From Desulfonauticus submarinus (lineage in GTDB: Bacteria; Desulfobacterota; Desulfovibrionia; Desulfovibrionales; Desulfonatronovibrionaceae): DNA of 35,209 nucleotides. The notes beneath the pieces were generated by a model that did no database searches, was not told the origin of the DNA, and saw only the letters and a list, made by a program, of their open reading frames with translations. The translations under genes were made by a program, and so were the position numbers. Location: contig NZ_FNIN01000017.1 of assembly GCF_900104045.1 (NCBI RefSeq), forward strand, positions 1 through 35,209, read 5' to 3'. Below are positions 1 through 18,590 of the stretch, one piece after another; the first letter of the stretch is position 1, and every line of letters begins with the position of its first letter.

Positions 1-296
1 CTTCTCAGAGTAACTACAAGGAATTGAAACTTTTTAGGATCTCTCACCAAAGCAATTCTCCGTTTTACTTCTCAGAGTAACTACAAGGAATTGAAACACG
101 AACTTTTATCAACGTTTTGGCATATTTATTTAACTTCTCAGAGTAACTACAAGGAATTGAAACATTAAGAAATTGTGTTGTGCTATCTACTTGGTCATCA
201 CTTCTCAGAGTAACTACAAGGAATTGAAACACAGTAACATCTTTAATATTAACTTCATTTCCTGATCTTCTCAGAGTAACTACAAGGAATTGAAAC
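1..296 (+). CRISPR. CRISPR array, left part: five repeats and four complete spacers
   Basis: Five identical 30-nt repeats lie at 1-30, 68-97, 134-163, 201-230 and 267-296. Each begins CTTCTCAGAG and ends GGAATTGAAAC. The spacers at 31-67, 98-133, 164-200 and 231-266 are 37, 36, 37 and 36 nt. A repeat ending in ATTGAAAC is characteristic of type I-A/I-B and type III arrays read on this strand, so the leader should lie to the left, outside the window. No cas gene is present. An open frame on the minus strand across 65-298 is only an artefact of the repeats. The fifth spacer begins at 297 and is cut by the prophage. Confidence 0.97.
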
Positions 297-313
297 ACAT
301 TTTCTGCGATGGG
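297..313 (+). repeat. Left half of the interrupted CRISPR spacer, including the 5-bp target duplication ATGGG (309-313)
   Basis: The spacer after the fifth repeat runs 17 nt and ends ATGGG at 309-313. The same five bases occur at 34952-34956, directly after the right end of the prophage. Joining 297-313 to 34957-34976 gives a 37-nt spacer, matching the 36-37 nt of the others. A 5-bp duplication is what Mu-type transposition leaves. Confidence 0.93.
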
Positions 314-319
314 TGTGGG

Positions 320-510
320 GTGTTATTTATTTTGAGAAAAAGGAAAGAAGGGATTTGGGGTGGGTCAAATGTGAGACAAATATAGAACTGGTGCGGGATG
401 AGAGGATTTTAATCTCGGAGAAATAGTGAAATTTTAATTTGAGAAAAATTGCGAAATTTTAACAAAAATTTGCATGTATTTTGAGAAATTTGCACATAGT
501 TTGAGAAATT
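320..510 (+). promoter_or_regulatory. Left-end motif cluster (likely transposase-binding sites, attL)
   Basis: A ~22-bp motif whose best copy reads TTTGCACATAGTTTGAGAAA occurs in degrees of fit at 320-341, 427-448, 469-490 and 489-510. All share TTTGAGAAA at the same offset. The last two are closest to consensus and lie 20 bp apart. Similar sites in inverted orientation occupy the right end. In Mu, MuA binds three ~22-bp sites at each end, so these are read as transposase sites by analogy. They could also bind the repressor. The rest of the 257-bp gap between the array and the first gene (297-554) shows no gene. Confidence 0.7.
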
Positions 511-554
511 ATTAACACAATAAATTAAACATTTAGGGGATCCACCAATGGTGA

Positions 555-2354
555 TTAAAACTCTCCTAATAATTTTTTACTTGGTGTCAAAACTAATATA
601 GCTTCTTGTTCTATTTTTTCATTTGTTAAAACATCCATATTCCCAAATTCTTCTGTTAATGTGCCCTCTTGATTATATGTTATTATATATTGAAAATAAT
701 CATCTTTACTATTGGCTTCTGAAAGTTTTTTTTGTAAATACATGTACAGATGAACAAAATGAGCTTTATCAACTCCATCAAAAATTCCATCATGGACTAA
801 AAATCTTGGTGCTTTTAGGTTATTATCAATTGAATTAAACAAAATGGCTAAATCATATATTAAGGTTCGGCCTTGATTTTTCCCCTTACCAAACATCATT
901 GTAGTATTTAAAAGGCTTATTTCTATTTTTGATTCTTTTTGTGGAACTGAATTTATATCGAAGATTGGCAATGTATCGCTATATTCTGGATAAATTGCAT
1001 TATATATCTCCTCAATTAATACTGCTATTCTGTTCTTTTTTTCTTCTATTGATACTTCAAAATCAATAATTTCACCTTCTATTTTTTTTATTTCTTGTTC
1101 AATTTTATTTTTTTCTTTTTGTAATTCTCTAAATATATCTACTTTGTTTTTTAATTCTGCTAAGTGCATTTTTTTCTCACTTAATTGGTAGTATGCTTCC
1201 GATAAATCATCTATTGCTTTTTTGTTTGATAGATATTTAAAAATCCTTCCTCTTTTTGTTGCTAATTCATTGATTAATTTTTTTCTTTCCTCAATTCTAT
1301 TCTGTATTTTTTTGATTTCATCTTTTAAAAATTCCTTTCTAGACAAAATTAATTCTTTTTTAAAATTTATTGCTTCATCAAGAGTCTTTTTTATTCTCTC
1401 TCCTAAGAGTTGATTAAATTCACTATAGAGTTTTTCTATTCGCCAAGTTTGAAGTTTAATATCATCAAAAGATATACTATTTTGGTATGCTTCTATTCTT
1501 TTTTTATCAGTATAATTTTGAAACCATAATTTTTTTATTTGCTCGGTTAATTTATTAGCTTCTATTTCATTGATTTCATAATTTTTGTGCAATTGAAAAG
1601 AGGATATAAAATTCTCTAATTCCTTTACTTCTTTTTCTAAGGCTCTTATTTGGCTACTTATGTAAGCTTGTCTGTTTTCAGATAAATTTAAATCATATCT
1701 TTCTTCAAAAAAATTTTTTATTTCTTTAATAGCTGGTTCAATCTTTTTTAATTTTGTTTGAAATAAGAAATTTCTATGTGCAATATCATTATTAATATCC
1801 ATTAAAAATAAATGATATTGGATTAATTCTGTTTCTGTAGATTCTTTAATATATTTGATAGGATCAACAAAAGCCTCCTTTTTGTGTTTATGTATTTTTA
1901 AATAAAACGGAATTAATTTTCTTAACCAAGTGTTTGAATAGTATCCTTCATAATTTTCTCTTCTAAAAAGTAAATTACACAGCTCCAATTTTAGTTCTGA
2001 TAAAGTATAGGGAGCTAATTTTTTATTCTTTAAACCAAATAGTATATTGTTATTTGGTTTATCAAAAGAACGCTTTATAACATAAATTTGATTTTTGAAT
2101 TCAAGCTCCAAAATCACTGATTTCCCTTTTAGTATACCTTTTTGGTAAGCACTATACAATCTTTTATTGTATATATTAAAACTTGATAAAAGAGCAAAGT
2201 CAATTAAATCAAGAAACGTAGATTTCCCGATATTGTTTAAGGATTTTTTTGAGTCTGTTAATTTTTCTTTTTTTCCGTATATAAAATTAATTCCAGGTTT
2301 AAATTCAACAGGTTCAAAAGTAATAGGTTCTGTATATATCTTTTTCAAATACAT
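555..2354 (-). CDS. DUF2326-type SMC-like ABC ATPase of an ABC-three-component system
   Basis: A 599-residue protein built like an SMC/RecN ATPase. The N-terminal part has GINFIYGKK, then a spacer and NNIGKST, which together form the split P-loop typical of DUF2326 (YydD-like) ATPases. Residues ~210-450 are highly charged coiled coil. The C-terminal part has the signature-like KGKNQGRTLIYDLAIL and a Walker B-like FLVHDGIFDG, in which the usual catalytic Glu is Gly, as is common in this family. It is the last gene of the minus-strand operon, 3 bp after the middle component. In ABC-3C systems (Krishnan, Burroughs, Iyer and Aravind 2020) such ATPases are thought to sense invading nucleoprotein and gate an effector. 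The assignment rests on motifs and neighbours; the trigger and target are unknown. Confidence 0.85.
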   Translation of the reverse strand: MYLKKIYTEPITFEPVEFKPGINFIYGKKEKLTDSKKSLNNIGKSTFLDLIDFALLSSFNIYNKRLYSAYQKGILKGKSVILELEFKNQIYVIKRSFDKPNNNILFGLKNKKLAPYTLSELKLELCNLLFRRENYEGYYSNTWLRKLIPFYLKIHKHKKEAFVDPIKYIKESTETELIQYHLFLMDINNDIAHRNFLFQTKLKKIEPAIKEIKNFFEERYDLNLSENRQAYISSQIRALEKEVKELENFISSFQLHKNYEINEIEANKLTEQIKKLWFQNYTDKKRIEAYQNSISFDDIKLQTWRIEKLYSEFNQLLGERIKKTLDEAINFKKELILSRKEFLKDEIKKIQNRIEERKKLINELATKRGRIFKYLSNKKAIDDLSEAYYQLSEKKMHLAELKNKVDIFRELQKEKNKIEQEIKKIEGEIIDFEVSIEEKKNRIAVLIEEIYNAIYPEYSDTLPIFDINSVPQKESKIEISLLNTTMMFGKGKNQGRTLIYDLAILFNSIDNNLKAPRFLVHDGIFDGVDKAHFVHLYMYLQKKLSEANSKDDYFQYIITYNQEGTLTEEFGNMDVLTNEKIEQEAILVLTPSKKLLGEF

Positions 2355-2357
2355 AGT

Positions 2358-2591
2358 CTATTTCTCTTTTTTACGCAAAAAAATTTGATATTTCTCTCTT
2401 TCAACAATATCTGCTAACCACAAAAAAGTTATTGTATCATAAAAAAGGTCCAAGCTAATATTTACGTCCTTTTTTATTTTTTGATATAATTTATCTATAT
2501 TATAAGGTTGTTTCATCAATTCTTTTGTTATCTTATATCCTATTACCGCTATACTTTTATTTATATTGTCATATTTTGTAGGTATCAACAT
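2358..2591 (-). CDS. ABC-3C middle component (MC6-like) small protein
   Basis: A 77-residue protein starting MLIPTKYDNINKSIAVIG, predicted to be helical and winged-helix-like. Its size, its opening (an IP-x-K stretch followed by a helix ending in ...IGYKITKEL) and its place between a SMEK-domain gene and a DUF2326 ATPase fit the middle components of ABC-three-component systems, most likely the MC6 type. Such proteins are thought to bridge the ATPase and the effector. It begins 7 bp after the SMEK gene ends and stops 3 bp before the ATPase start, so the three are co-transcribed. There is no strong ribosome site, which suggests translational coupling. The family call relies partly on context. 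Confidence 0.75.
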   Translation of the reverse strand: MLIPTKYDNINKSIAVIGYKITKELMKQPYNIDKLYQKIKKDVNISLDLFYDTITFLWLADIVEREKYQIFLRKKEK

Positions 2592-2597
2592 AATTTT

Positions 2598-3608
2598 TTA
2601 ATCAAATAAACTAATCTGTTTATTTTTTTGTTCTTCAACTGTTTTTTTGCCTATTTCACATTGTTCAAAAAAGTATAATACAATTAGTTGAGCATTAAAA
2701 ATATATTCTGGATCTTTTTTAGGCGTTAATTTTTCTGCAATTTTTTTAAAAACTAAAACATCTTTTATTTTTTCATTTGGATTGTTTATTCCCTGTATTT
2801 CACAATACTCTGTTCTAATTATATTTAATAAACCATCAATCCTGAATGGATTTTCTTGTTCTGCTTCAATAAATTCCCTAATCAAATATTCATATTTAAA
2901 ATAATCATCAAACAATTTATTAACAATCTCTTCTTGTTCCTTTGAGAAATTTAATGGTATTTTCTTTTTTAAATGTGTTAAGTCTTTACTATTTTGAAAC
3001 TTATTGCTTTGCTCAAAGTTATAATTATCAAATATATATTTAAAAATCTCAGCTAAAATGTCTCTATTTGCTTCTTGTGTAGAATTAGCGAAAATTGGAA
3101 TATAATTTAATTCTTTCTCTAAAAATTCAAGAATATACTTTAATTTATCAGCACTAAATGAGTTAAATTTATCTATTATATCTTGAATATCAATAATATC
3201 CCTATCTTTATCAAACTTATATTTTCCGTTTTTAGTAAAATCAGTTTTTGAATAATTTGGCTTTGATCGGCCTATTAATAAAATTATAATTCTTTCTAGA
3301 TTAGGATAATTTTTATAAAATCCTTCAATTGTATTATGTATTTTTCTAGTATCAGTTCTTGATGTTACTTGAATTGCCAATTTATTTTCTTCATCTATTA
3401 AGTCAATACTTTCTGCATTTGGATAATCTTCATTGGCATTTTTTAAATTTATGAAATCATCCTCATAGAAAGCTAATAAGTCTTTAAAAAAATCTTCTGC
3501 CTTTTTGTTTGTATCAAATAATTTTAACCCATTAATAGATATTACATACTCTTTATAACTATTTAATAAAAAGCTGATTCGTTTTATGTATTCTTCCCTA
3601 TTCAACAT
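2598..3608 (-). CDS. SMEK-domain protein, probable effector of the ABC-3C system
   Basis: About 336 residues from ATG at 3608. A TTG at 3632, in frame and overlapping the upstream gene, would add eight residues; neither start has a good ribosome site. The N-terminal ~150 residues contain SIDLIDEENKLAIQVTSRTD followed by a helix and the strand RIIILLIG. This Asp...Gln-Val-Thr-Ser pattern matches the SMEK domain, which resembles a degenerate restriction-endonuclease fold and is found in ABC-3C systems. The C-terminal half (~200-336) is helical and charged and probably contacts the other two components. The next two genes downstream are the middle component and the ATPase. Nuclease activity is not proven: the canonical ExK is replaced by QVT. 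Confidence 0.8.
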   Translation of the reverse strand: MLNREEYIKRISFLLNSYKEYVISINGLKLFDTNKKAEDFFKDLLAFYEDDFINLKNANEDYPNAESIDLIDEENKLAIQVTSRTDTRKIHNTIEGFYKNYPNLERIIILLIGRSKPNYSKTDFTKNGKYKFDKDRDIIDIQDIIDKFNSFSADKLKYILEFLEKELNYIPIFANSTQEANRDILAEIFKYIFDNYNFEQSNKFQNSKDLTHLKKKIPLNFSKEQEEIVNKLFDDYFKYEYLIREFIEAEQENPFRIDGLLNIIRTEYCEIQGINNPNEKIKDVLVFKKIAEKLTPKKDPEYIFNAQLIVLYFFEQCEIGKKTVEEQKNKQISLFD

Positions 3609-3610
3609 TT

Positions 3611-4003
3611 TTATGTGTTTTTTATTATCCAAGTTTTAATTGGCAATTTACATTTTTTAATCACAGTATTTAATCTTATCCAATACTTATAATCCTTTTC
3701 GTGCTCTAAAATCAAGACTATTCCAGGTTTCTTCCCTGTTTGTAGAGCATAATAGAGAGCCTGTCCAATTGCTTCTGCCCATTTAGGTGCAAAGTCAAAC
3801 TCAATTGCATATTCGTCAGTAATACAGTCACATCTGGTTCCATCAGGCATAACTACTTCAGTTTTTCCAGTATGTCCCTTACACCATTTGTTTTGATAAT
3901 ATTTTTCTTTATGGAGATGTTTTGCAAAAGATATAGAACAAAGTCCAAATATGATTAAAAAAATAAAAAAAATTTTTCTTAGTCTATTTCTCTTCCCATC
4001 CAT
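3611..4003 (-). CDS. Exported PD-(D/E)XK nuclease-like protein
   Basis: A 130-residue protein with a basic N-terminus, a hydrophobic stretch (IFFIFLIIFGLCSISFA) and a likely signal peptidase I site after SFA at about residue 27. The mature part contains EVVMPDGTRCDCIT, then YAIEFDFAPKWAEAIGQALY and GIVLILEHE. The order Glu, Asp, then Glu-x-Asp followed by an alpha helix resembles the PD-(D/E)XK nuclease core. Similar small secreted proteins occur in many bacteria without an assigned function. It lies between the lipoprotein and SMEK genes in the repressor operon. If secreted, a nuclease in the periplasm could degrade incoming phage DNA, but this is a guess. It has paired cysteines that could form disulphides. 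Confidence 0.6.
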   Translation of the reverse strand: MDGKRNRLRKIFFIFLIIFGLCSISFAKHLHKEKYYQNKWCKGHTGKTEVVMPDGTRCDCITDEYAIEFDFAPKWAEAIGQALYYALQTGKKPGIVLILEHEKDYKYWIRLNTVIKKCKLPIKTWIIKNT

Positions 4004-4015
4004 TTTTTTTTCTCT

Positions 4016-4747
4016 TCAAAAGCAATATAATTTTTTATTAATAAATTCACGCCTTTCTTTAACATCCATTATACTTATCCGATAACATTCTTCAGTGCCT
4101 CCATAAAAAATACAAACTTTTTCTTTGTTTTTTGAATAAATTTTAATCTTCGTTACCTTCGGAGACAATAATTCCTCATAAACAAGATCTGAAGTACAAA
4201 ATGCATCAAGTATTCCTAAAGCAATTAAAGGAGTTAGTAGATTGCTATTATTTATTATTTTTATTTCATAGATACCATCCAGAATCTCATGTAGATCATA
4301 CTGCTTTTTTAATTTTTCAAAAACTTCTTCTTTTTTACCTTCTGTAGATAAAATTTTTCTTGTTTTAGATAATATAAAATTAGGTTGCTTGTATAAAGGC
4401 AATTTGCTAAGATATAAAATATCTTCTGGAGTTGCTGTAAAAATATATAGGTTTTCTTTTAAATCTACAACTTGAATTTTATTTAATTGACCACTAAACC
4501 ATCCTGCTTTATCAATTAACATCTTACATACGGCAAGCACAATAGTTACATAGTCTTCTTCTGTTATAGAAGATTTGTTAACTTTAATTTCAATAACATT
4601 TTTACCAAAATGTACATCTTTAATATCCATAAATGCAAAATGGTCTTTTATGTAATGTTTTACTTTATTAATATTTATAATTTCTATTGCCCAACAACAA
4701 GAAGCTAATGTCATTAATATACTAATAAAAAAAGCAACCCTTTTCAT
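4016..4747 (-). CDS. Predicted lipoprotein of unknown function in the lysogeny operon
   Basis: A 243-residue protein. It starts MKRVAFFISILMTLASCCW, a signal peptide with the lipobox Leu-Ala-Ser-Cys, so acylation at Cys17 and membrane anchoring are likely. The rest is soluble, mixed alpha/beta and Lys/Ile-rich, and I recognise no family. The start at 4747 has GAAGGGA about 9 bp upstream. It follows the repressor gene by 29 bp and is followed 12 bp later by a second exported protein. Prophage lipoproteins expressed in lysogens are often superinfection-exclusion factors or other lysogenic-conversion proteins; that role is inferred only from position and export signal. Confidence 0.65.
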   Translation of the reverse strand: MKRVAFFISILMTLASCCWAIEIININKVKHYIKDHFAFMDIKDVHFGKNVIEIKVNKSSITEEDYVTIVLAVCKMLIDKAGWFSGQLNKIQVVDLKENLYIFTATPEDILYLSKLPLYKQPNFILSKTRKILSTEGKKEEVFEKLKKQYDLHEILDGIYEIKIINNSNLLTPLIALGILDAFCTSDLVYEELLSPKVTKIKIYSKNKEKVCIFYGGTEECYRISIMDVKERREFINKKLYCF

Positions 4748-4776
4748 AATACTTTATCCCTTCAAAGCCAATTAAC

Positions 4777-5172
4777 TCATCCCACCTTTGCTATTTTCTC
4801 CTCTAATTCCTTAATTTTTTTTTGCATTTTTTTTAACTGTTTAATCTTTTCAATATATTTTAACACATCGTCTTTCCCTTCTTCATCTAACATTTCAAAC
4901 ATTTTTAGCACTTTTTCAGTTCTAGGATTAAGGTTCTGGATTTCTATTCCTCCCCCCTGCTTCACTTCTCCGTGAAACATCGGCCCATCTCCAGTTAGGA
5001 GCCAGTTGATATTTACGCCAATTTTTGCGTATTTATTAATGACTGACGATTTTATGTCAACGTTCTCCTGCTCTAACCTTTGATAAGTTCTTAGAGGCAT
5101 TCCAAGCAGTTTAGCCATTTTGTTTTGAGAGAGTTCCATTTTTTCTCTAATTTTTTTTATTCTGTTTTTCAT
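4777..5172 (-). CDS. Prophage repressor, XRE-family helix-turn-helix
   Basis: A 131-residue protein. Residues ~3-60 form an XRE/Cro-C1 helix-turn-helix (SQNKMAKLLGMPLRTYQRLE), followed by INWLLTGDGPMF, a stretch common after the HTH in phage repressors. The last ~50 residues are a Lys/Glu coiled coil, probably for oligomerisation. No LexA-type peptidase domain is present, so induction would not use RecA-driven self-cleavage. It is divergent from the Ner-like gene with a 79-bp operator region between them, the standard arrangement of a Mu-like early switch. It heads the minus-strand operon carrying the exported proteins and the ABC-3C genes, so those are probably expressed in the lysogen under its own promoter. 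Confidence 0.9.
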   Translation of the reverse strand: MKNRIKKIREKMELSQNKMAKLLGMPLRTYQRLEQENVDIKSSVINKYAKIGVNINWLLTGDGPMFHGEVKQGGGIEIQNLNPRTEKVLKMFEMLDEEGKDDVLKYIEKIKQLKKMQKKIKELEEKIAKVG

Positions 5173-5251
5173 ATTCTCGCCATTTTTTGCTTGACTTTTT
5201 TCGCCAAAATTGGCTAAATTCTATTAAAAACTTTCATAAAGGATATGCAAA
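5173..5251. promoter_or_regulatory. Divergent early operator/promoter region
   Basis: This 79-bp gap separates the repressor (minus) from the Ner-like gene (plus). On the plus strand TTGACT (5191-5196) and TAAATT (5215-5220), 18 bp apart, make a plausible early promoter. Between them lies the dyad GCCAAAATTGGC, and a related half-site CGCCATTTT lies upstream. Repressor or Ner-like protein bound to the dyad would block the promoter. AAAGGA at 5238-5243 is the ribosome site for the Ner-like gene. On the minus strand TAGAAT is a candidate -10 for the repressor, with no clear -35. Confidence 0.6.
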
Positions 5252-5446
5252 ATGAGTAAAAATCGCAAGAGTAAAGATATAAGGAAGCAAATTTGGGAAA
5301 AATTTGGCTGGTCCATGAGGGTTTGGGCTAGCCGTAGAGGCTTAAAACCACATGATCTCTACAATTTTCTTTATGGCAAAGCAGGCAGAAAAACTAGCAA
5401 GCGAATTGTAGAAATGCTCCAAAAAGATGGAATTTCCAGGAGCTAA
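5252..5446 (+). CDS. ner: Ner-like early regulator (small HTH protein)
   Basis: A 64-residue basic protein whose centre (MRVWASRRGLKPHDLYNFLY) fits a helix-turn-helix with a following recognition helix. Its size, its place as the first gene opposite the repressor and its position 2 bp before the transposase gene match Mu Ner, the Cro-like protein that turns down repressor and early transcription. ATG at 5252 has AAAGGA 8 bp upstream. Sequence similarity to Ner itself cannot be judged by eye, so the name rests on context. Confidence 0.7.
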   Translation: MSKNRKSKDIRKQIWEKFGWSMRVWASRRGLKPHDLYNFLYGKAGRKTSKRIVEMLQKDGISRS

Positions 5447-5448
5447 AT

Positions 5449-7701
5449 ATGAGGCTTCTAAGTGTAAAAGAAGTTGCAAAAATTTTAGATGTTAGTGAGA
5501 GGACAGTAAGGCGCTATATACGGCGAGGGTTAGAGGTTGCTGAATGGCGAACTGTAAAAGGAGGCAAAACTCCTTATTTTACTAGAGAGGCGGTGGAACA
5601 GTTTCTTCTACAAAAGTCGGACAAGTCGGACAGCAAAGTCGGACAGGTCGGACAAGTTGGACAGAGAAAGTCGGACAACTCGGACACCGTCCCAAATTCC
5701 CTTATCCCACAAGACTTTTCTGGTGAAAAAGAGTCATTTTCACTGGCAACTGCCAATTTTTTATGTCGTAATATTTTTAATAACAATAGTAACACGGATT
5801 GCACTACAAGCGCATTACAGACCTTACGACCAGCCTTTATATCAAAGCCCAAAAAAGTAATTGACACTGAGGTTCCCTTCTGGGCCCAGGAGGTTGCCCT
5901 GGCAAGATTTGAGCTGGTGAGGGAGTTTGCTTCAAAGAAGAGCGTAAAAGAAAAAGAAGAGTTTGTAGAGGCATATAATACAGGTGAGCTGTTTCCAAAG
6001 ATATATAAAAAGTTGGGTAAAGTTTCTTTAAAGACTCTCTATAGGTGGCAAAAAACATTAAATGAATATGGCAATGATTTTTTAGCCCTTGCTCCTGATT
6101 GGGGAAGGGCAAAAAGAGGCAAAACAAAGGTTACTGATGAGGAAGCAAAGGTTCTTTTAAGCCAGCTTCTTCATCAAAATAGATTTAAGATAGCTCAGGC
6201 AATAAAGATTACAAAGTACATTTTAAAGGAAAAAGGCATACCTTCTCCTTCATCACATGCAACCCTTAGAAGGTTCGCAAAGTCCTTTCAAAAGGCGCAC
6301 TATGACATCTGGGTTTTAGCTCGTGAAGGAGAAAAAGCCCTAATAGACTAGGTCCTTCCACACCTTGAGCGGGATGCTGATGTTTTAAAAACAGGAGATC
6401 TCCTAGTAGCAGACGGCCATAAATGCAATTTCCAAGTGATAAATCCTTACACAGGCAAACCTACACGCCCAACTTTAATCGCATTTTATGACTGGTCCAG
6501 CAGGGATGTAGCTGGATACTGCATAATGGTAACTGAAAACATACAGGCAATACACCTTGCCTTATATCGTGCAATTCTACGCATAGGCCGTATTCCCACA
6601 GTAGTCTATCTGGATAATGGCAAGGCATTTAGGGCAAAGGTCTTTACTGGGATAAAAGATTTCAGGGAAGAGGGAATAGTTGGTTTATACGCAAGACTAG
6701 GCATTCATACCATCTTTGCTCGCCCCTACAATGCAAAGGCAAAGCCAGTGGAGCGGTTCTTCTCAACTCTGGATAGTTTTGAAAGGATGCTTCCTTCTTT
6801 TGTTGGTGCAAATATACAAGACAAGCCAGCTAGACTCCTTAGAAATGAGAAATTTATGCAGTATATTTCTATAAATTATACTCCAACTATAAAGGAAGCT
6901 GAAGAGTGGTTTGAGAAGTGGCTTGATTTTTATCGCTCTCAGCCAAGCAAAGCATTAAATGGCCTTTGTCCAAAGGATGTATTCAGACCAGGGCCTGGAG
7001 TTGATCCGAAAGAATTGTACATGCTGATGCTATGCGAAAAAGAAGTAAAACTCTACAGAAACGGCATAAGACTTTTTGGATCTTGGTACTGGAACGAAGC
7101 TCTATACGGCCTAAAAGAGAAAGTTAGCATTAGATATGACCTGCACGATCTAACATCTGTTCTTGTTTTTACTCAAGATGGTGAGTTTCTATGCGAGGCA
7201 AAGAGGCTTGAGAAGGTGCATCCTGCAGCAGCTATTATGGGAGATGAGAAGAGTTATACAGAGATAAAGAAAAGGCTTTCTGAGCACAGAAAGTTAAAAA
7301 GACTAACAAAAAAGCTCGTGGAAATGGGCATAAAAGCAGATATAAACTGGCAGGATGTGGCAGACAAAGTTCCTGAAGTCATAGATAAGCTTGAGAAGAG
7401 CAGGGCCAAAGCAGTTAATGCTTTAAAGGCAAAAACAGACGATGTTTTGGTTATAGACGATGCTGAAATAGAAAATATTTCTCTTCCAGAGCCAGACAAG
7501 AAACCAGATAGGCCAGTTTTTAAAAACGAAACAGACAAATACTTCCATCTTATGGATCTTAAAAGCAAAGGTGAAACTTTAACAGAGGAAGACGAGGAAT
7601 TTATAAAGGAATATGAAGAAGACCCTTTAAATAAAGCAGTGGTGAGCCTCGTCAGGTCTCAAAATCGCCCTTTAGACCATGACGAGGCAATAAACTCATA
7701 G
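5449..7701 (+). pseudogene. A: MuA-like DDE transposase interrupted by an in-frame TAG codon
   Basis: The reading frame runs unbroken from ATG 5449 to 7701 (751 codons including the final stop) except for TAG at 6349-6351. The N-terminal 300 residues hold an excisionase-like HTH (LLSVKEVAKILDVSERTVRR), a repeat-encoded linker and the sequence-specific DNA-binding domains. The downstream part holds the catalytic core: Asp in LLVADGH (codon 6412-6414), Asp in VYLDNGKA, and Glu in KPVERFF, the DDE triad of Mu A. The C-terminus is acidic, like the MuB/ClpX-interacting domain III. No ATG, GTG or TTG lies in frame between the TAG and the first catalytic Asp. The first restart (GTG 6436) would miss that Asp, so only readthrough could make an active enzyme. 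Other prophage genes end in TAG, so the codon is a real stop. The likely origin is a single substitution; a sequencing error is possible. Confidence 0.9.
5616..5687 (+). repeat. Tandem 9-bp repeats GTCGGACAR in the transposase gene
   Basis: Seven units of GTCGGACAA/G, two of them with one or two changes, occur at 5616, 5625, 5638, 5647, 5656, 5670 and 5679, separated by short A-rich inserts. The inserts shift the frame, so the same DNA unit is translated first as Lys-Ser-Asp, then as Val-Gly-Gln, then again as Lys-Ser-Asp/Asn-Ser-Asp. All give a hydrophilic linker after the N-terminal HTH. Confidence 0.85.
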
Positions 7702-7711
7702 GAGGTTATAT

Positions 7712-8413
7712 ATGAAAAGTGTATTTGCGGTAACCAAAAATGTCAAGAAATTCTTAGCTGGCGTGGACAATCTGATGCGCAGACAAAAGACGATTCCTGG
7801 AATGATGCTTGTTTTTGGAGAGCCTGGCACAGGCAAGACCAGGACAGCTCTTTGGTGGAAGATTCAGAATGGGAATGGGGAAAACAGGGTGCCGTATGTG
7901 AGGGCAACAAGAGTGATGACTCCAAGAGCCCTGCTTGAGCAAATTTTATATGAACTTGGCGAGACTCCAATGTGGAAGACATCTCAGATTTTACAACAGA
8001 TAAAAGACCATCTTCTATCAAATCCTCGTCCAATAGTAGTTGATGAAGTGGATTATCTTTGCAGGGACGCATTTGTTGAGGTGCTGAGAGACATACACGA
8101 TCTTACAGATGTTCCTGTGATAATGATTGGCATGGCTGAGGCAGATAAAAAGCTAATGCGATTTAGACATCTTTATGACCGCATAAGCGTAATTGTGCCT
8201 TTTAAACTTCTTGATTTTGAAGATGTGAAATCCTTGTCCACTCAAATGTTAGATGTTGTTCTTGAGGATGATCTTCTAAAATACATTGTGGAAAAATCTC
8301 GTGGGAAGCTAAGACGGATAGTAACAATGTTTTACAAGGCAGAGCGAATTGCAAAGGCAAGCAAGGCAAAAAGGGTCTCTTTAAAAATGTTTCAAGGAGG
8401 CAGTGATGAATAA
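7712..8413 (+). CDS. B: MuB-like transposition ATPase
   Basis: A 233-residue AAA+ ATPase with Walker A GEPGTGKT (residues 36-43) and Walker B PIVVDEVDYL (~107-116), followed by a conserved arginine-rich segment and a C-terminal lid (KLRRIVTMFYKAERIA). MuB binds target DNA, delivers it to MuA and stimulates strand transfer. It is shorter than Mu B (312 residues) because it lacks the N-terminal HTH domain; the small winged-helix protein encoded next might supply DNA binding. AGGAGG lies just upstream of ATG 7712, directly after the transposase stop. Intact, in contrast to the transposase. Confidence 0.9.
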   Translation: MKSVFAVTKNVKKFLAGVDNLMRRQKTIPGMMLVFGEPGTGKTRTALWWKIQNGNGENRVPYVRATRVMTPRALLEQILYELGETPMWKTSQILQQIKDHLLSNPRPIVVDEVDYLCRDAFVEVLRDIHDLTDVPVIMIGMAEADKKLMRFRHLYDRISVIVPFKLLDFEDVKSLSTQMLDVVLEDDLLKYIVEKSRGKLRRIVTMFYKAERIAKASKAKRVSLKMFQGGSDE

Positions 8414-8717
8414 ATATAGGAAAAATAGCGCAAGGGTAAAGATGTGGGAAGCAATAAGGGGCCTTAGCAGATTCACTGCCTTTGATGTGTGCCAGTTATC
8501 AGGAGCAAGTTATCAAAATGTAAAAAGGTATCTACGAGCTTTAGAGCTTGCAGGATACATAGAAACAAGAGGTAAAAACGGTAGATGGAAAATATATAAG
8601 TTAATAAAAGATACAGGATTCCGTGCCCCTATACAAAAAGAAATAAGGTGTCTTTTTGATCCAAATACAGGGGAGCTGTGGGTACAAGGATATTCGTATC
8701 AAGGAGAGAAAAGATGA
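8406..8717 (+). CDS. Winged-helix DNA-binding protein of the early operon
   Basis: About 103 residues from ATG 8406, chosen because AAGGAGG lies 6 bp upstream; a GTG at 8403 is too close to it. It overlaps the end of the B gene. Residues ~15-60 (FTAFDVCQLSGASYQNVKRY, then LELAGYIETRG) form a MarR/ArsR-like winged helix with a wing at GKNGRWKIYKL. The C-terminal tail is short. Similar proteins are common early genes in Mu-like phages, with function unassigned; partnering the short MuB is possible. The stop overlaps the next start as ATGA. Confidence 0.7.
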   Translation: MNKYRKNSARVKMWEAIRGLSRFTAFDVCQLSGASYQNVKRYLRALELAGYIETRGKNGRWKIYKLIKDTGFRAPIQKEIRCLFDPNTGELWVQGYSYQGEKR

Positions 8718-9130
8718 AAAAATATAACAGAAAATCCCTACTTGCAAAAATCCACATTGCCAAGAAACAGCTTGGCCTTTCAGATGACATATATAGAGGG
8801 GTTTTAGCTGAAAGATACGGGGTGCGCTCTGCAAAGGAGCTTAAAAATTTTGAGCTTATAGACCTTTGCAGACATTTTGAGAAACTGGGATTTGAACCAA
8901 AGCCGCCTAAAAAACGTCCCTCTGCTGTGCCTGCAAGGACAGCTTTGGTAAAAAAAATAGTGGCTATGAGTTACAGCCTAAATGTTCCTATTCCTGAATA
9001 TGCAAATGGCATAGCAAAGAGGATGTTTGGCATAGACGATTTTTCCTGGTGCACGCCAGATCAACTACACAAGATAGTTGCAGCTTTAACTTATCATCAA
9101 AAACGAAAGGAGGTAAACCATGCTGTATGA
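8714..9130 (+). CDS. gemA: GemA-family protein (Mu gp16-like, DUF1018)
   Basis: A 138-residue protein from ATG 8714, which follows AAGGAGAG and overlaps the previous stop as ATGA; a longer frame from 8678 has no reason to be used. Features typical of the GemA/gp16 family are LLAKIHIAKKQLGLSDDIYR near the N-terminus, GVRSAKELKNFELIDLCRHF in the middle and a C-terminal domain with LHKIVAALTYHQKRK. In Mu, GemA modulates host gene expression and gyrase-dependent supercoiling. The next gene starts inside its 3' end (9120). Confidence 0.85.
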   Translation: MKKYNRKSLLAKIHIAKKQLGLSDDIYRGVLAERYGVRSAKELKNFELIDLCRHFEKLGFEPKPPKKRPSAVPARTALVKKIVAMSYSLNVPIPEYANGIAKRMFGIDDFSWCTPDQLHKIVAALTYHQKRKEVNHAV

Positions 9131-9398
9131 GAAAATAATGTCTGTACACAATGCACTTGGTGTTCTGTCCCATAGAGTGGATAAAGAAACCTGGGCAGTA
9201 ATAAAGATTGCAAGATCCGAGCTTATGGACGCAGCAGACATGGCCCAGGAGCTGACCGAGCACCTGACATGCCCACGCAAACCTTGCGATAAAAGCAATG
9301 ATAAAACAAGGGATGTCAGGTGCTCGGCTCTTGGTTTTGGCAAATTCGTAAGAACAAACTCTGTATCTGCCAAACAGGAGCATGACAATGAAAAATAA
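9120..9398 (+). CDS. Small hypothetical early protein carrying a long inverted repeat
   Basis: A 92-residue protein with a good AAAGGAGG site before ATG 9120, which overlaps the end of gemA. The first ~45 residues are a regular amphipathic helix (VIKIARSELMDAADMAQELT). The second half is encoded by a perfect 15-bp inverted repeat and its loop (9256-9327) and looks unlike a folded domain (four cysteines, many charged residues). The original gene may have ended sooner and been extended by the inserted repeat. I recognise no family. Confidence 0.55.
   Translation: MLYEKIMSVHNALGVLSHRVDKETWAVIKIARSELMDAADMAQELTEHLTCPRKPCDKSNDKTRDVRCSALGFGKFVRTNSVSAKQEHDNEK
9256..9327. repeat. Long hairpin-forming inverted repeat with AGGTGCTCGGCT right arm
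   Basis: CCGAGCACCTGACAT (9256-9270) and its exact complement ATGTCAGGTGCTCGG (9313-9327) flank a 42-nt loop that itself contains the small hairpin CGCAAACCTTGCG and a GCCC/GGG stem extension. The right arm shares AGGTGCTCGGCT with the inverted repeat at 20021-20086. It has no following T-run, so it is not an ordinary terminator. Confidence 0.8.
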
Positions 9399-9765
9399 AA
9401 CATCTGAAAAGGACATATTAAAAAACAAGGTGCTTGTTGAACTCATGCATAGGGTTGGCAAACAAAACGCAATCTCTATGCAGGAGCTGCACAGGCTTGT
9501 CTTTGGTCAGGAACCACAACATGACGTGCACGGAACCAGAAGGCTGAGGGAAATAATAACAGACCTTAGAAAGGAAGGGGTTCCAATTGCATCAACCACG
9601 CAAAGAGGTCATGGGGGTTATTACATTCCTGTTGGTTCTGAAAAAGACGAATATTGCAGAAATATCAGAAACAGGGCCTTAAAACTCCTCATGCTTGAGG
9701 CAAAAATAAAGAAAGTACCACTGCATTCTGTAATCCGTGAAATATCACTATCACTTGGGGGATAA
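9388..9765 (+). CDS. Helix-turn-helix early protein
   Basis: About 125 residues from ATG 9388, which has AGGAG 7 bp upstream; the ATG at 9382 lies only 1 bp from it. It overlaps the end of the previous gene. Residues ~20-85 read as a winged helix: AISMQELHRLVFGQ, then TRRLREIITDLRKEGVPIAS, then the wing QRGHGGYYIPV. The C-terminal ~45 residues are helical. Such proteins occur in the early operons of Mu-like phages without a defined role. A local DNA-binding or regulatory role is likely. Confidence 0.65.
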   Translation: MKNKTSEKDILKNKVLVELMHRVGKQNAISMQELHRLVFGQEPQHDVHGTRRLREIITDLRKEGVPIASTTQRGHGGYYIPVGSEKDEYCRNIRNRALKLLMLEAKIKKVPLHSVIREISLSLGG

Positions 9766-9767
9766 CA

Positions 9768-10211
9768 ATGTTTGTTTTTGAAGAAATAGAAAAGATTTTA
9801 TCTGAGATAGCCCATCTAAAGTCCCAGGCTCAAGGGGTCAAAGATGCCTGGGATAGGGCCATCTCAGAGTTAGAAAAGCAGTACGGTTCAAAATTAAACG
9901 AGTGCAAGGCAAAAATCAAACAAAAAGAAAAAGAGTTAATTAAACTTGCAAAATCAAATCAAAAGGTAGTTTTTGATTGTGGAGATAAAAGGGAATTTAC
10001 AAACGGAACCTTATACTTTGCGATTTCAGAGAAAGTAAAACGGGCAAGGGGTGTAACTCCTAAGAAACTCAAAGAGCTTGGATACCTAGACGCAATAAAG
10101 GTAATAGAGAAGGTAAACTGGGACACAATAGAAAAATGGCCAGATGAAAAGCTCATTGCAATTGGCACAGAGAGGATAAGGAAGGAGGAAATAAAATATG
10201 AAACAAGATAA
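9768..10211 (+). CDS. gam: Gam-like host-nuclease inhibitor (Ku-like DNA end-binding)
   Basis: A 147-residue protein in the Mu Gam family. The N-terminal ~65 residues are a long coiled coil (ISELEKQYGSKLNECKAKIK), followed by the compact part VVFDCGDKREFTNGTLYFAI and LGYLDAIKVIEKVNWDTIEK. Gam binds DNA ends and shields them from RecBCD and other exonucleases; it is related to Ku. It is a little shorter than Mu Gam (174 residues). GGGGGATAACA precedes ATG 9768, 2 bp after the previous stop. Confidence 0.88.
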   Translation: MFVFEEIEKILSEIAHLKSQAQGVKDAWDRAISELEKQYGSKLNECKAKIKQKEKELIKLAKSNQKVVFDCGDKREFTNGTLYFAISEKVKRARGVTPKKLKELGYLDAIKVIEKVNWDTIEKWPDEKLIAIGTERIRKEEIKYETR

Positions 10212-10386
10212 AGATCTGTGCCCTGAGTGTTTGCATTTGGTTAGGTTTGAAATTGATGAAGATGACTTTTTTGAAACAGATGAAGGCGAGACTATTACAG
10301 AGCTTAAGTGTCCTAATTGCGGCGCTGATTTGGAAGTCTTTTTTGAACTCAGGGCGGTGTTATGTCTAAGGCCCAGGGAGGAATAG
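10198..10386 (+). CDS. Small zinc-ribbon protein
   Basis: A 62-residue acidic protein with two cysteine pairs, CPEC near the N-terminus and CPNC about 30 residues later, which form a rubredoxin-like zinc ribbon. AAGGAGG lies just upstream of ATG 10198, inside the end of gam. The pair spacing and small size suggest a structural zinc site; it may bind nucleic acid or a protein. No specific family is recognised. Confidence 0.65.
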   Translation: MKQDKDLCPECLHLVRFEIDEDDFFETDEGETITELKCPNCGADLEVFFELRAVLCLRPREE

Positions 10387-10833
10387 ATGGCAAGAAAAGA
10401 CCAAATCAAACTGTTTTTCTGTGCTTGCATAGATGAAGATCCTTTTGTGGTAATGTTAAAAGAGGCAAAGATTTCAATAAAATATTGGCCGTATATAAAT
10501 GCCTTAAGGAGATGGAGAGATAAACTAAGAGACCTGGTGTTGGTAGGGGTAAAAAATCAAGAAAAACAGACAAAAACAGCAATAAACAAGGCAATAGAAC
10601 TGTTTAAACGGATTCCTGCAGATGAAATAACAATTGAATTTTATTTGAATTTCTGTCTTGCCTTAGCTGAGGATATTTTAGAGCGAGTGAGGAATAAGTC
10701 AGAAAAGCACATATGGGATAAGATTATAGAAAATATGTTTAAGTTATATAGTCTGTTTGATCCTGGACTGGAGAAGGATAGAGACATGGAACAGGCAATA
10801 GAAGTGAACAAATTGGTGCAGGAGGTGTTTTAG
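10387..10833 (+). CDS. Hypothetical early protein, all-helical
   Basis: A 148-residue protein with a GGGAGGA site 4 bp before ATG 10387, starting immediately after the zinc-ribbon gene. It is predominantly helical and basic in the middle (WPYINALRRWRDKLRDLVLV) and acidic at the C-terminus. No motif is recognised. It belongs to the early operon between gam and the late activator, where Mu-like phages carry variable accessory genes, including host-takeover and anti-defence proteins. Confidence 0.55.
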   Translation: MARKDQIKLFFCACIDEDPFVVMLKEAKISIKYWPYINALRRWRDKLRDLVLVGVKNQEKQTKTAINKAIELFKRIPADEITIEFYLNFCLALAEDILERVRNKSEKHIWDKIIENMFKLYSLFDPGLEKDRDMEQAIEVNKLVQEVF

Positions 10834-10835
10834 AG

Positions 10836-11381
10836 ATGAAACTCACCTGCCCTGCGTGCGGATACTACGGAGCTTTAGAAGGATTTCTGGCCATAGAGGA
10901 TTACAAAAAGGCCCTGTCTATTATCTGCTCTTTGCCTGGGGATTTACCAACTTTGTTTATTCGTTATCTTGGGCTGTTCAGAAAGCCAGGCTCAGACAGG
11001 GCCCTGACTGGCTCTCGTATCTTAAAAATTTGCACACAAATTGAGAAATTAATAAATAACAAAGAGTTGCAGTGGAAAAACAAGCGCATTTTAGAAAATA
11101 ATCCAAGATATTGGGCAGAAGCCATAAATATCTTACTCACAAAGGACGAGGAAGGAAGGCTCAAAAGGCCACTGACCAATAATAACCTTCTTTGTGCAAT
11201 AGCGTATGACATTGCTGAGAGGGAATTTGAAGAAAAGGCAAGACAAAAAGAAGAGAGCCTGCGTTCAGGTTACAGGGATAATCAAGTTGTTTTTCCAGAG
11301 GCAAGCCTGACAGGCGTCCTGCCTCCAGAGGAGCAGCTTAAAAGAATACAGGAAATCCGCAAAAAATTGGGGATGGTATAA
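10836..11381 (+). CDS. Hypothetical early protein with N-terminal zinc knuckle
   Basis: A 181-residue protein starting MKLTCPACGYYGALEGFLAI. CPACG gives two metal ligands, with no second pair nearby, so it may need a partner or a remote Cys/His. A similar opening occurs in Mu-like phage proteins next to the Mor-like activator, with no known function. The C-terminal ~50 residues are charged helix (QLKRIQEIRKKLG). AGGAGG is ~10 bp before ATG 10836. Its coding sequence contains an internal copy of the prophage end motif (11029-11050). Confidence 0.6.
   Translation: MKLTCPACGYYGALEGFLAIEDYKKALSIICSLPGDLPTLFIRYLGLFRKPGSDRALTGSRILKICTQIEKLINNKELQWKNKRILENNPRYWAEAINILLTKDEEGRLKRPLTNNNLLCAIAYDIAEREFEEKARQKEESLRSGYRDNQVVFPEASLTGVLPPEEQLKRIQEIRKKLGMV
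11029..11050 (+). promoter_or_regulatory. Internal copy of the prophage end motif inside a coding gene
   Basis: The stretch TTTGCACACAAATTGAGAAA (followed by TT) matches the best left-end copy (489-510) at 19 of 22 positions, in the left-end orientation. It lies inside the gene at 10836-11381. It may be an accessory site for transposase or regulator, or may be chance in AT-rich DNA; the precise fit argues against chance. Confidence 0.5.
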
Positions 11382-11382
11382 T

Positions 11383-11601
11383 ATGGACTTGTTTGAAATG
11401 TTATATACAGATATAAAAGAGGGAATGTCTATCAATCAAATTTGTGAAAAATATGGTGGTTTTCAGGTTTATATCCCTCTCCCAAAAAGGTATATAAAAT
11501 ACAAAATAAAAAAAGAATTTAATGGAACAAACCACAAAGAATTAGCAAGGAAATATGGATTAAGTGTGAGGCAAGTGTACCGCATATTGGGGGGAAGATA
11601 A
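11383..11601 (+). CDS. mor: Mor/C-family transcription activator
   Basis: A 72-residue protein with the Mor-family pattern: GGFQVYIPLPKRYIKYKI (the beta-strand/dimer segment) followed by the HTH NHKELARKYGLSVRQVYRIL. Mor and C activate the middle and late promoters of Mu, binding as dimers. It is shorter than Mu Mor (129 residues) because the N-terminal dimerisation helices are reduced. Its place at the end of the early operon, before the structural genes, fits a late switch. The divergent region 16997-17137 is the likely target, though I see no clear Mor-type dyad there. Confidence 0.85.
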   Translation: MDLFEMLYTDIKEGMSINQICEKYGGFQVYIPLPKRYIKYKIKKEFNGTNHKELARKYGLSVRQVYRILGGR

Positions 11602-11612
11602 TGGAGGTGATT

Positions 11613-11909
11613 ATGGAAACTATCTTTGACCACAATTTAACAGAAGAAGAGTTCAAATATTTCTTTAGCAAAAAGGTAGATTTAGAGAATCAGAGAATTG
11701 TTCCATATACAAAAGAAGAGGCAATGGAAAAGGTAAAAAATATGTCCCAGGATGAGAATTATGCATATCTGGCTGATCTATATTGCCTCAGGATGGATAA
11801 GAAAAAGATGGATGAATACATAGATAAAATAAAAGATCCATTTCTGCAGCAGGATACTGCCCATTCTGTGTATCACGAGTATTATTTTCGGCTTTCCAAA
11901 CTAAAGTAG
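11613..11909 (+). CDS. Hypothetical protein, last gene of the early operon
   Basis: About 98 residues from ATG 11613, which has GGAGG 6 bp upstream; ATG 11601 would add four residues. It is acidic with a helical repeat character (EEAMEKVKNMSQDENYAYLA). Its stop (TAG 11907-11909) overlaps the stop of the convergent head-morphogenesis gene (11901-11903), leaving no room for a terminator between operons. The function is unknown. As a small acidic protein in a variable slot it could be an anti-defence protein, but nothing in the sequence shows this. Confidence 0.6.
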   Translation: METIFDHNLTEEEFKYFFSKKVDLENQRIVPYTKEEAMEKVKNMSQDENYAYLADLYCLRMDKKKMDEYIDKIKDPFLQQDTAHSVYHEYYFRLSKLK

Positions 11910-13241
11910 TAAATGTAGATATATAAGATTTAAGATCCCTGTTTTGTTTCCATTTGTCTTTTCTGCCAGAATCTCTGCCAACTTTTCTGGATATAAATCT
12001 ATTGATGTGGAATGTATCATTTCTTCAATATCTAAGAGCACATCTTTGTCTTTAATATTAATGTTTGTTAATAATTCATCCAATCTTGAAACCATATTTG
12101 AATAACCGTATCCCTCTTTTATTATGCGTTCTTGATGTTCAGGAGTAAAATTACCAAGTTTTTTCAACAAGTTTGGATAAGTCCTCCTTGCATACCATTG
12201 GGTGACTGTTTCTACTACTGATTTTTCATATCTGCCTGCAAATATCTGTTTATTATGCACAATTTCATGCCAGAGAGCTTCCAGTGCATACTCTTCATTA
12301 AAACTCAATTTTTCCTTCCCAAGTTTATTAAAAGCATTCATTAAGTCATTTAAAGGCGAAAAATTATTTAAGCGTGGAAACTTTTTGGAAGATATAAATA
12401 AGCCCCCATTGGATGGATCAGTGGCCATAAAATATTTTTCATTAACTGCCACTGTTCCACTGTATCCATTTTTAAACTCATCTGCCAGCTTTGTTTTAAT
12501 AACTTTGTCAATATCCTGCACTGACTTAATTTTCCCAAACTCATCTTGCAGTGTTTTTCTCAAATTATCTGCAAATTTTTTTGGATATTTTTTTATTTTG
12601 TCTTGAAATATATTTTCCAGAGATCCAAAATAGTCCTTTGCTGGATTGGTTCCAAACCCAGGATCAGGTTCCTGCGGTGGCATATCTTTACTGATTCTGT
12701 TTGGTGGGACATCATCTCTAAGAGGAATAACAGAGCACCTGCAATTGTAGCCATTTGGAGGATACCATCTACTCCAGAAAGGATGATCTGCTGGGTATAT
12801 TTTCTCATCCATCATGGCATGTGTGGGTCTTGTGCGTGAGTCATTTACTGCATCATACATCCACAGAGGAAACCTCTGTTTTACTTTCATCATTTGTCTG
12901 TATCTTCCAACTTGGTAAGACGTCTGAATATTTGTCCTGAATACTACTTCTGTATGCCAGGGACTGGTGATTATATCTTGAATTTGCTTTTTGAATTGTT
13001 TTAGAGTTATGCCTTCATCTAAGGCTTTTTGCAGAGCTTTGTGAACTGCGTTTAATTCATCTGCTGTATATAGTTTTGCAGCAGTAAAGGCATGCACTCT
13101 TTTTTCTTCATCAAGCTGATAAAACTCAAATGGCGTGAGCAATATTTTATCTTTCCAAAAATTTAAGGCTTCTTCAGGAGGAAGGGGTTCAAGGGTTATT
13201 TCTGCAAATTCCAGTTTTTTTTTACGCTGTATCTTCCCCAC
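11901..13241 (-). CDS. Mu gpF-like head morphogenesis protein with C-terminal HExxH metallopeptidase-like domain
   Basis: A 446-residue protein from GTG 13241. Residues ~20-180 are the phage Mu F / SPP1 gp7-like domain with its hallmark NDSRTRPTHAMMDEKIYP and PPNGYNCRC. Residues ~240-446 are an extra domain carrying LWHEIVHNK (HExxH at 325-329) and a Glu in SVVETV 15 residues later, the ligand set of a zinc peptidase. Fusions of ADP-ribosyltransferases and other toxins to gp7/F domains are known; they may be carried in the capsid and injected. The start overlaps the portal gene by 46 bp and has no strong ribosome site, which implies coupling. The protein joins portal to capsid in the early head. 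Confidence 0.85.
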   Translation of the reverse strand: MGKIQRKKKLEFAEITLEPLPPEEALNFWKDKILLTPFEFYQLDEEKRVHAFTAAKLYTADELNAVHKALQKALDEGITLKQFKKQIQDIITSPWHTEVVFRTNIQTSYQVGRYRQMMKVKQRFPLWMYDAVNDSRTRPTHAMMDEKIYPADHPFWSRWYPPNGYNCRCSVIPLRDDVPPNRISKDMPPQEPDPGFGTNPAKDYFGSLENIFQDKIKKYPKKFADNLRKTLQDEFGKIKSVQDIDKVIKTKLADEFKNGYSGTVAVNEKYFMATDPSNGGLFISSKKFPRLNNFSPLNDLMNAFNKLGKEKLSFNEEYALEALWHEIVHNKQIFAGRYEKSVVETVTQWYARRTYPNLLKKLGNFTPEHQERIIKEGYGYSNMVSRLDELLTNINIKDKDVLLDIEEMIHSTSIDLYPEKLAEILAEKTNGNKTGILNLIYLHLLL

Positions 13242-14653
13242 AAATCACTTGCTATGAGGCATCGCTTAAGCAACTCTTCAAACTTTTCTGTAGGCACATC
13301 TTTAACAATTTCTGCAAGGGTCATCTCTATTTCTGAGAAGGAGTTAGCTTTTTTTACGGCATTCACTATAAAATCTTTGTGATCTGATAAGTCTAAATCT
13401 TCCAGGGCACGGCCTATGAGATCTTCAATAACTTGTTGTTCAGGGGTAAATTTTTGTTCAGAGAATGTATGTTCTTTAAATCCTATTTCCTGCTTTACTT
13501 CAAAGTCATCATCTTCTAAGTGATAGCGCTTTTGATAATATTTCTTTGTAAATGTTATCTGCTTGCTTAAAATATCATCTCTTTCTGCCCACTCAGTTTG
13601 AGGATCATCTTCTTCAATAAACTTAAATTCAGGGGGTTCAGAGTTAAAATTAAGTTCGCAAATCCACTTGATAAGTGTGTTAAATGCCTTTTTTATTAGC
13701 ATTTTATCTGCAATAATTAAATCTTCTCTCACTGTCTGGTGAACTTGTGCAGCAGCACGGGATCCTTCCCTCACTTCAGTGGTTAAGTTTTGTCCCAGGA
13801 TTGAGATGGAAATCTCTGCATTGAGCTCCTTTAAAAATTCAGAAAACAGAGAAGAGTTTCCTTTTCCCTGGGTAGATAAGATGTCTATGGAAGAGTTTTC
13901 TTCAATAACAGCCACAGCGTCCATGACCATCTTTGACAGGCTTGATAAAAGCTCGTTCTTTTTATCATCAGATGTGCCTACAGGCACCTTTCCAATTAGG
14001 TATGGGAGGCCATATTTTTCCAGAAAGGTTATCCAGAACTTATAACCACCTCTTTTAAAGGTAACAGGCCAGAACACCTCTGAAAGCAAAGGTTTTCCGT
14101 AAGGATTCTCATAAGAGGCTTCAGATGTCACAAGGAGCAATTTTTTCTCAGGTACTTCCTCTCCCTGCATGGGAGCATCTTTTGATAGAAATCTTATTTT
14201 TCCATCTTCATCAAATCCAAACCACCTTTGAGGAAGTCCTATAATATCTTTTGGCAGGATAAATTTTCCCCTGTCCCATATTATCTCTAAAGGTTTGTAC
14301 CCAAAGAGCACTCCATCAAGCATTTCAGACATGATACGATATATATCAAGGTCTTTAAAATACGCAGAAATTTCCTTTCTTGCCCTGGACGTTCCACCAT
14401 CTAAAAACCACTCCAGCTTGAGTATGCCAGCTTTTCTGGACCGAACACATCCTCCTACTCTACTATCAATCAACAGGTCCTTGTAAACAGATATGTCTAT
14501 GCTTTTCTTTTTCAGCACAGGATCAGGATTTGGCAAAAGGCCCATAACAGTCTGAAAATCCATAGAGCGTGAGCGTGTAAATAGAACATCAGTTAAAGAA
14601 TCATCTTGAAATGCTATAAACTCTCCATTTGGCAAATATATTCCCTTTTTCAT
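13196..14653 (-). CDS. Portal protein (Mu gp29-like, DUF935)
   Basis: About 485 residues from ATG 14653, preceded by AAGGA and overlapping the terminase stop as ATGA; an in-frame TTG at 14659 is less likely. Family features are SRVGGCVRSRKAGILKLEW near the N-terminus, EMLDGVLFGYKPLEIIWDRG, and SILGQNLTTEVREGSRAAAQVH in the core, which match the DUF935 portal of Mu. It forms the dodecameric ring through which DNA enters and leaves the head. The last 45 bp overlap the gpF-like gene. Confidence 0.93.
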   Translation of the reverse strand: MKKGIYLPNGEFIAFQDDSLTDVLFTRSRSMDFQTVMGLLPNPDPVLKKKSIDISVYKDLLIDSRVGGCVRSRKAGILKLEWFLDGGTSRARKEISAYFKDLDIYRIMSEMLDGVLFGYKPLEIIWDRGKFILPKDIIGLPQRWFGFDEDGKIRFLSKDAPMQGEEVPEKKLLLVTSEASYENPYGKPLLSEVFWPVTFKRGGYKFWITFLEKYGLPYLIGKVPVGTSDDKKNELLSSLSKMVMDAVAVIEENSSIDILSTQGKGNSSLFSEFLKELNAEISISILGQNLTTEVREGSRAAAQVHQTVREDLIIADKMLIKKAFNTLIKWICELNFNSEPPEFKFIEEDDPQTEWAERDDILSKQITFTKKYYQKRYHLEDDDFEVKQEIGFKEHTFSEQKFTPEQQVIEDLIGRALEDLDLSDHKDFIVNAVKKANSFSEIEMTLAEIVKDVPTEKFEELLKRCLIASDLWGRYSVKKNWNLQK

Positions 14654-16284: not shown

Positions 16285-16779
16285 TTATGCAAACTCTTTT
16301 GTAATTCTTTGATTGATTGCATCAAGATACTTTGAAAGCTCTGTTGTGATTTCCTGATCTTCTTTGATTACATCAAAGACTATTTCAAGCACCTTCAAAG
16401 CCACATCTGCCACAGCCACCTCAGGAGTGGTCTTTTTCATTGCAGAGACCATCTTGTTAAAGGTATCGCCTAAAGAGGCCAGGGCTTTTACCTTTTCCTG
16501 CGGATCTAAATCAGGTAAGGTCTGCACTTCCTGGATGGTTGTGTTTAAGATGTCCAGGAATTTTGTAAGTATTTGTTTGTTTATGGACTCAACAGAGTCT
16601 TCAGACAGAGAATTTGTGTATCTCAGCCTATCCCAATCGTAGATGGTGCTCTTATCCTTTGTCTTCCATCTCCTGAGCGTTGCTTCACTAATATTTAATT
16701 TTTTTGACAAAATGGCAAAAGACAGTCCATCTGCGTAGAGTTTTCTTGCCTGTTCAATGATCTCTTTTTTATATGCCAT
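16285..16779 (-). CDS. Terminase small subunit (Mu gp27-like)
   Basis: A 164-residue protein. The N-terminal ~45 residues are a helix-turn-helix (ARKLYADGLSFAILSKKLNI, then SEATLRRWK), as in small terminase subunits that bind the packaging start. The remainder is helical, with an oligomerisation-like segment (LDPQEKVKALASLGDTFNKM). It lies directly upstream of the large subunit in the same minus-strand operon. Similar HTH-first proteins precede the large terminase in other Mu-like phages. Confidence 0.85.
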   Translation of the reverse strand: MAYKKEIIEQARKLYADGLSFAILSKKLNISEATLRRWKTKDKSTIYDWDRLRYTNSLSEDSVESINKQILTKFLDILNTTIQEVQTLPDLDPQEKVKALASLGDTFNKMVSAMKKTTPEVAVADVALKVLEIVFDVIKEDQEITTELSKYLDAINQRITKEFA

Positions 16780-16780
16780 A

Positions 16781-16996
16781 TTAAGATTTTATTCCAAAAA
16801 ACTGCATTCCTGCGTTGATAATAGTTGATATAATTGCGCCAGATATTAGACCATTTTTGGCGGATTTTATTTCAACCTCTCTGAGCCTATCATCTATTGT
16901 ATTTAGTTTTTGTGTATGAGAATTAAGAGTATTTTGTATTCCCTGCAATATTCCTGTGTGCTCTCCTAACTTCTCCAGGAGATCTTTTTCTGCCAT
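16781..16996 (-). CDS. Small coiled-coil protein with C-terminal membrane segment (XhlA-like)
   Basis: A 71-residue protein. Residues ~5-45 form an amphipathic coil (LGEHTGILQGIQNTLNSHTQ) and the end is a hydrophobic segment (LISGAIISTIINAGMQFF). This plan matches XhlA/holin-accessory proteins, so a lysis role at the membrane is plausible. It is the first gene of the minus-strand packaging operon, with AAGGAGGACAAT before ATG 16996. The last codons closely resemble a spacer in the right CRISPR half (35156-35176). Confidence 0.6.
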   Translation of the reverse strand: MAEKDLLEKLGEHTGILQGIQNTLNSHTQKLNTIDDRLREVEIKSAKNGLISGAIISTIINAGMQFFGIKS

Positions 16997-17137
16997 ATTG
17001 TCCTCCTTTTATAAGGCTGTTTTAGGTGCTTGGTTTTTTTAATTTTATAATACAAGGTTGCTGTTTATTTTTTTGAAAAATGTCAAAAAAAAATATCTTA
17101 TAATTTTGTTATATTTTCCCAAAAAAAGGAGGTTTTT
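16997..17137. promoter_or_regulatory. Divergent late-promoter region with a dispersed 23-bp repeat
   Basis: A 141-bp AT-rich gap between two divergent late operons; both need promoters here, possibly Mor-activated. The repeat ATAAGGCTGTTTTAGGTGCT with TGG following (17011-17033) is the complement of 20018-20040 with one mismatch in 23. On the plus strand TTGAAA (17073) and TATAAT (17099-17104) are 20 bp apart, too far for a normal promoter, so an activator may be required. AAAGGAGG at the right edge serves the small gene at 17138. Confidence 0.5.
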
Positions 17138-18574: not shown

Positions 18575-18590
18575 AAACAAGGAGGAAAAT

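Follow-up and report, generated by a model that had tools for sequence, protein, structure and literature searches.

An in-frame TAG codon interrupts the transposase frame of a Mu-like prophage that splits a spacer of a type I-B CRISPR array in Desulfonauticus submarinus

Results

Prophage and CRISPR array in the window

The window, i.e. the whole stretch of 35,209 nucleotides of Desulfonauticus submarinus that was analyzed (contig NZ_FNIN01000017.1), is occupied almost throughout by a complete-looking Mu-like prophage, with CRISPR repeats and spacers at both ends (Table 1). The prophage starts with TGTGGGG and finishes with TTACA. Five of the 11 exact copies of TTTGAGAAA in the window lie within the prophage ends. 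Together with the flanking duplication and the family matches, these ends indicate that the element was inserted by transposition. Tailed-phage structural families (terminase, portal, protease, capsid and tail tape measure) were found. The initial annotation had described the MuB, Gam and structural genes as intact, which holds: their family matches are present and unbroken, all prophage frames except that of the transposase are intact, and no frameshifts were seen elsewhere in the 35 kb.

Table 1. Coordinates of features in the window
Feature	Position	Strand	Evidence
CRISPR array, left part: 5 repeats, 4 whole spacers and half of the split spacer	1..308	+	repeat CTTCTCAGAGTAACTACAAGGAATTGAAAC, spacers 36-37 nt
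5-bp target-site duplication ATGGG, left copy	309..313	.	
Complete-looking Mu-like transposable prophage, TG...CA ends	314..34951	.	ends TGTGGGGTGTTATTT / TGTAATTTGGCAC, flanking duplication, family matches
Left-end TTTGAGAAA cluster (331, 438, 480, 500), candidate transposase binding sites	331..508	+	exact motif count
Phage repressor-like HTH regulator	4777..5172	-	PHROG 8 and 2328
Transposase N-terminal part (300 aa), HTH_17 and Mu end-binding (I gamma) domains	5449..6348	+	Pfam HTH_17, HTH_Tnp_Mu_2
In-frame TAG stop, codon 301	6349..6351	+	translation
Remaining transposase frame (449 aa), DDE core and Mu-transpos_C	6352..7701	+	Pfam DDE_2, Mu-transpos_C
MuB-like AAA ATPase, adjoins transposase	7712..8413	+	PHROG 296, E 7.8e-52; Pfam AAA_22/TniB
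Mu Gam-like end protection protein	9768..10211	+	PHROG 491
Right-end inverted TTTGAGAAA copies (34904 exact, 34926 one mismatch)	34904..34934	-	
5-bp target-site duplication ATGGG, right copy	34952..34956	.	
Other half of split spacer and CRISPR array continuation, 4 repeats	34957..35209	+	

Two further features of the prophage were observed. At its left end (555-3632) lies a three-gene ABC-3C-like module encoding a DUF2326 protein, an MC6 middle component and a SMEK-domain protein; PADLOC matches to PDC-M68B, LmuB and Aga_REase make this module candidate defence cargo. Near the tail end, the protein encoded at 31572-33056 contains a CAP (cysteine-rich secretory protein) domain.

When the flanks are joined minus one ATGGG, the product is a 37-nt spacer of the same size as its neighbours. 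The prophage splits one spacer of the host type I-B CRISPR array, and the placement of the element in an array, proposed from the sequence in the initial annotation, is thereby borne out. The array continues on two further contigs: one (C5, L287) carries the type I-B Cas5b, Cas3, Cas4, Cas1b and Cas2 genes followed by 12 repeats on the leader side, and the other (C3, L288) holds a distal segment whose repeats are degenerate. Their orientation suggests the order C5-window-C3. In this array, which has cas genes beside it, the prophage separates the leader-side part from the distal part by 34.6 kb, and the insertion probably silences the distal spacers. A comparison of the array spacers with the prophage gave no sign of self-targeting, only short matching runs. 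Spacer 7 of the cas-bearing contig has a 16-nt exact run in common with prophage positions 34584-34599, and spacers 3 and 10 of the same contig have the same 36-nt sequence, one being a base longer. A simple repeat scan of relatives' loci, most of which stop short of the phage ends, found no other CRISPR-embedded relatives.

Transposase frame and its internal stop

The transposase frame (5449-7701) comprises 751 codons and contains, in translation, a single internal stop; its own terminator, at the end of 7701, is likewise TAG. The two parts on either side of the stop match PHROG 310 (transposase), the N-terminal part at profile positions 97-258 and the C-terminal part at 263-677. Because these matches are contiguous across the stop, the two parts together run colinear with an intact transposase, and the report of one in-frame TAG breaking a MuA-family frame is upheld. 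GC3 is nearly equal before and after the TAG (0.363 and 0.361). A 449-codon open frame with homologues aligning on both sides of the stop lies far beyond what chance would give.

The family profile of the C-terminal part matches the solved MuA structures 4fcy and 1bcm in the PDB. The DDE triad, i.e. Asp (VADGH), Asp (YLDNGK) and Glu (VERFF), is invariant in an alignment with seven relatives. The other MuA features are kept, as had been claimed, with the end-binding domain, the triad and Mu-transpos_C all present. The gene encodes a MuA-family transposase with a DDE core (PHROG 310 at 5e-75), although the stop interrupts its frame. The absence of a start codon between the TAG and the first catalytic Asp was also verified: ATG, GTG and TTG are missing from the in-frame codons 6352 to 6412, and the first candidate start after the TAG is GTG at 6436, past the catalytic Asp codon (GAC, 6412).

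Comparison with related transposases

In eight other genomes of the order, the related transposases are open (about 705-819 aa) and have no stop inside. A further 160 relatives were gathered with an alignment as query, and the initial annotation had proposed asking which amino acid related prophages have at the stop. Among the 152 relatives whose frame is open over the region, the codon-301 column holds Lys in 117 and a stop in none; nearly all others have Glu, Gln, Asp, Asn, Leu, Arg or His.

The frame is shortened in eight of the 160 further relatives. Two of these (L169 and L230) have in-frame stops elsewhere, four look frameshifted, and the rest are partial or cut at a contig edge. A class-wide PHROG 310 search flagged about ten other genes as having one stop inside. 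A recurrent TAG among relatives was considered on this basis and rejected, the flagged stops being nearly all the gene's own end or a frame boundary before the start. The search also gave a probable frameshift (G059) and one true in-frame TAG at another position, in the transposase N-terminal domain, in a genome of the same order (L111, G196:C12). Broken Mu-type transposases make up a few percent of relatives, with breaks at scattered positions, as chance inactivation would predict.

Searches of viral and genome databases with single proteins turned up no close relative, and an exact-match query of IMG/VR with a 24-mer from next to the stop revealed no further copy of the phage. A second Mu-type transposase was not found in the host genome.

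Discussion

Probable recent inactivation of the transposase gene

It is probable that a recent nonsense mutation has made a pseudogene of the transposase and stranded an otherwise intact Mu-like prophage in the CRISPR array. This reading had been put forward in the initial annotation and fits every test run. The prophage would have jumped into a spacer of the host type I-B array by means of a working transposase, and a later single base change would have turned codon 301 into TAG. The exact ends and the perfect 5-bp duplication argue for insertion by an active transposase, or with help in trans; a helper transposase may have acted at that time. Since no other Mu-type transposase is found in the genome, the simplest history is insertion first and stop later, and we infer this order of events. 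The unbroken state of every other prophage gene is consistent with a recent change. Translation would now stop after the DNA-binding half of the protein, leaving no DDE catalytic core, and a prophage lacking this core would neither replicate by transposition nor exit. Loss of transposase activity and of mobility is a prediction, made from the coding sequence.

Alternative explanations of the TAG codon

In the main rival reading, the organism itself has an intact gene, and the TAG arose as an error in sequencing or in the consensus, or comes from a minority variant in the culture. The assembly is a draft in 23 contigs, an open gene is only one base away, and the rest of the gene and all other prophage frames are intact, all of which would suit an error. 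However, no specific sign of an error was seen: there is no homopolymer at 6349-6351, the 35 kb is free of visible frameshifts elsewhere, and broken transposases occur in relatives too. We regard an error as unlikely, although it deserves more weight than any other alternative. Far less credible is the idea of an active transposase reassembled from two polypeptides, one spanning 5449-6348 and the other restarting at 6436 or farther downstream; this is the least probable of the explanations weighed here. GTG 6436 does open a 421-aa frame, but the first catalytic Asp codon would be in neither piece, no ATG, GTG or TTG is nearer, and no ribosome-binding sequence was seen by eye just upstream of 6436.

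Readthrough of the TAG, by a suppressor tRNA or a programmed signal, would hold the transposase at a low level. A low level would suit a lysogen, and the frame beyond the stop is open and conserved. Both forms had been named as alternatives in the initial annotation, and neither found support. Each of the 53 host tRNA genes found with the Rfam model was assigned an anticodon, and none has CUA in this 98.6% complete genome; in the same genome, the best PylS match scores 25.9 bits against a cut-off of 178, and RF1 is present at 577 bits, over its cut-off. The prophage has no tRNA or other Rfam matches, and the window likewise lacks a CUA tRNA. TAG terminates eight of the 44 prophage reading frames, including those of the transposase and the tape measure protein, so general suppression would lengthen those products too. 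Recoding of TAG by a suppressor or by pyrrolysine is not supported. A programmed signal is also disfavoured by the relatives, none of which (neither the 152 aligned nor those of the order) has a stop at this position. The RNA 3' of the stop is less structured than shuffled sequence (fold z-score +1.67), and the context UAG-GUC does not fit CARYYA, the leaky readthrough motif that follows a stop. We consider readthrough very unlikely. Basal misreading of the stop could give traces of full-length transposase; that such traces keep the CRISPR-embedded prophage at a very low, selected mobility seems a shade more improbable still. Among host tRNAs, the one unusual gene is that for tRNA-Sec (UCA; G000:C8:11500-11588), which serves UGA, so some host genes may decode UGA as selenocysteine.

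The TAG most likely represents an ordinary kind of transposase inactivation, not unusual decoding. A recent nonsense mutation at codon 301 would provide a clear example of transposable phage fixation, in which a mobile prophage becomes a permanent insertion through a single stop in its transposase. The exact insertion into a CRISPR spacer is more notable than the broken transposase. Mu targets near-randomly, and such targeting also explains a precise insertion of this kind. No prophage inside a CRISPR array is described in the parts of the prophage and CRISPR literature examined, and no report of the exact arrangement appears in the titles and abstracts consulted, whose partial coverage has little bearing on novelty. 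Both the stop and the CRISPR insertion leave current understanding of Mu and the genetic code unchanged.

Comparison with known Mu-type phages

In phage Mu, amber mutants of gene A carry a stop in the transposase gene that is expected to block transposition and replication. Here too a stop interrupts a Mu-type transposase gene; the present case differs in being a natural sequence, in a host with no known suppressor, and in that the phenotype is predicted. The element has in common with Mu and Mu-like phages the MuA-family DDE transposase, MuB-like ATPase and Gam (PHROG 310 and PHROG 296 for the first two), as well as TG...CA ends, a 5-bp target duplication and repeated motifs at both ends. In contrast, its transposase is interrupted, has an HTH_17-type N-terminus and is only about 23-31% identical to those of named phages, the best match being Fusobacterium phage phiRTG5 (31%). 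The closest transposases found are those of two uncultivated Mu-like prophages, IMGVR_UViG_3300033755_000092 (L207) and IMGVR_UViG_2523231030_000003 (L209), which are 53% and 51% identical over the catalytic part. Unlike the present gene, both have open transposase frames in which a sense codon occupies the position of codon 301.
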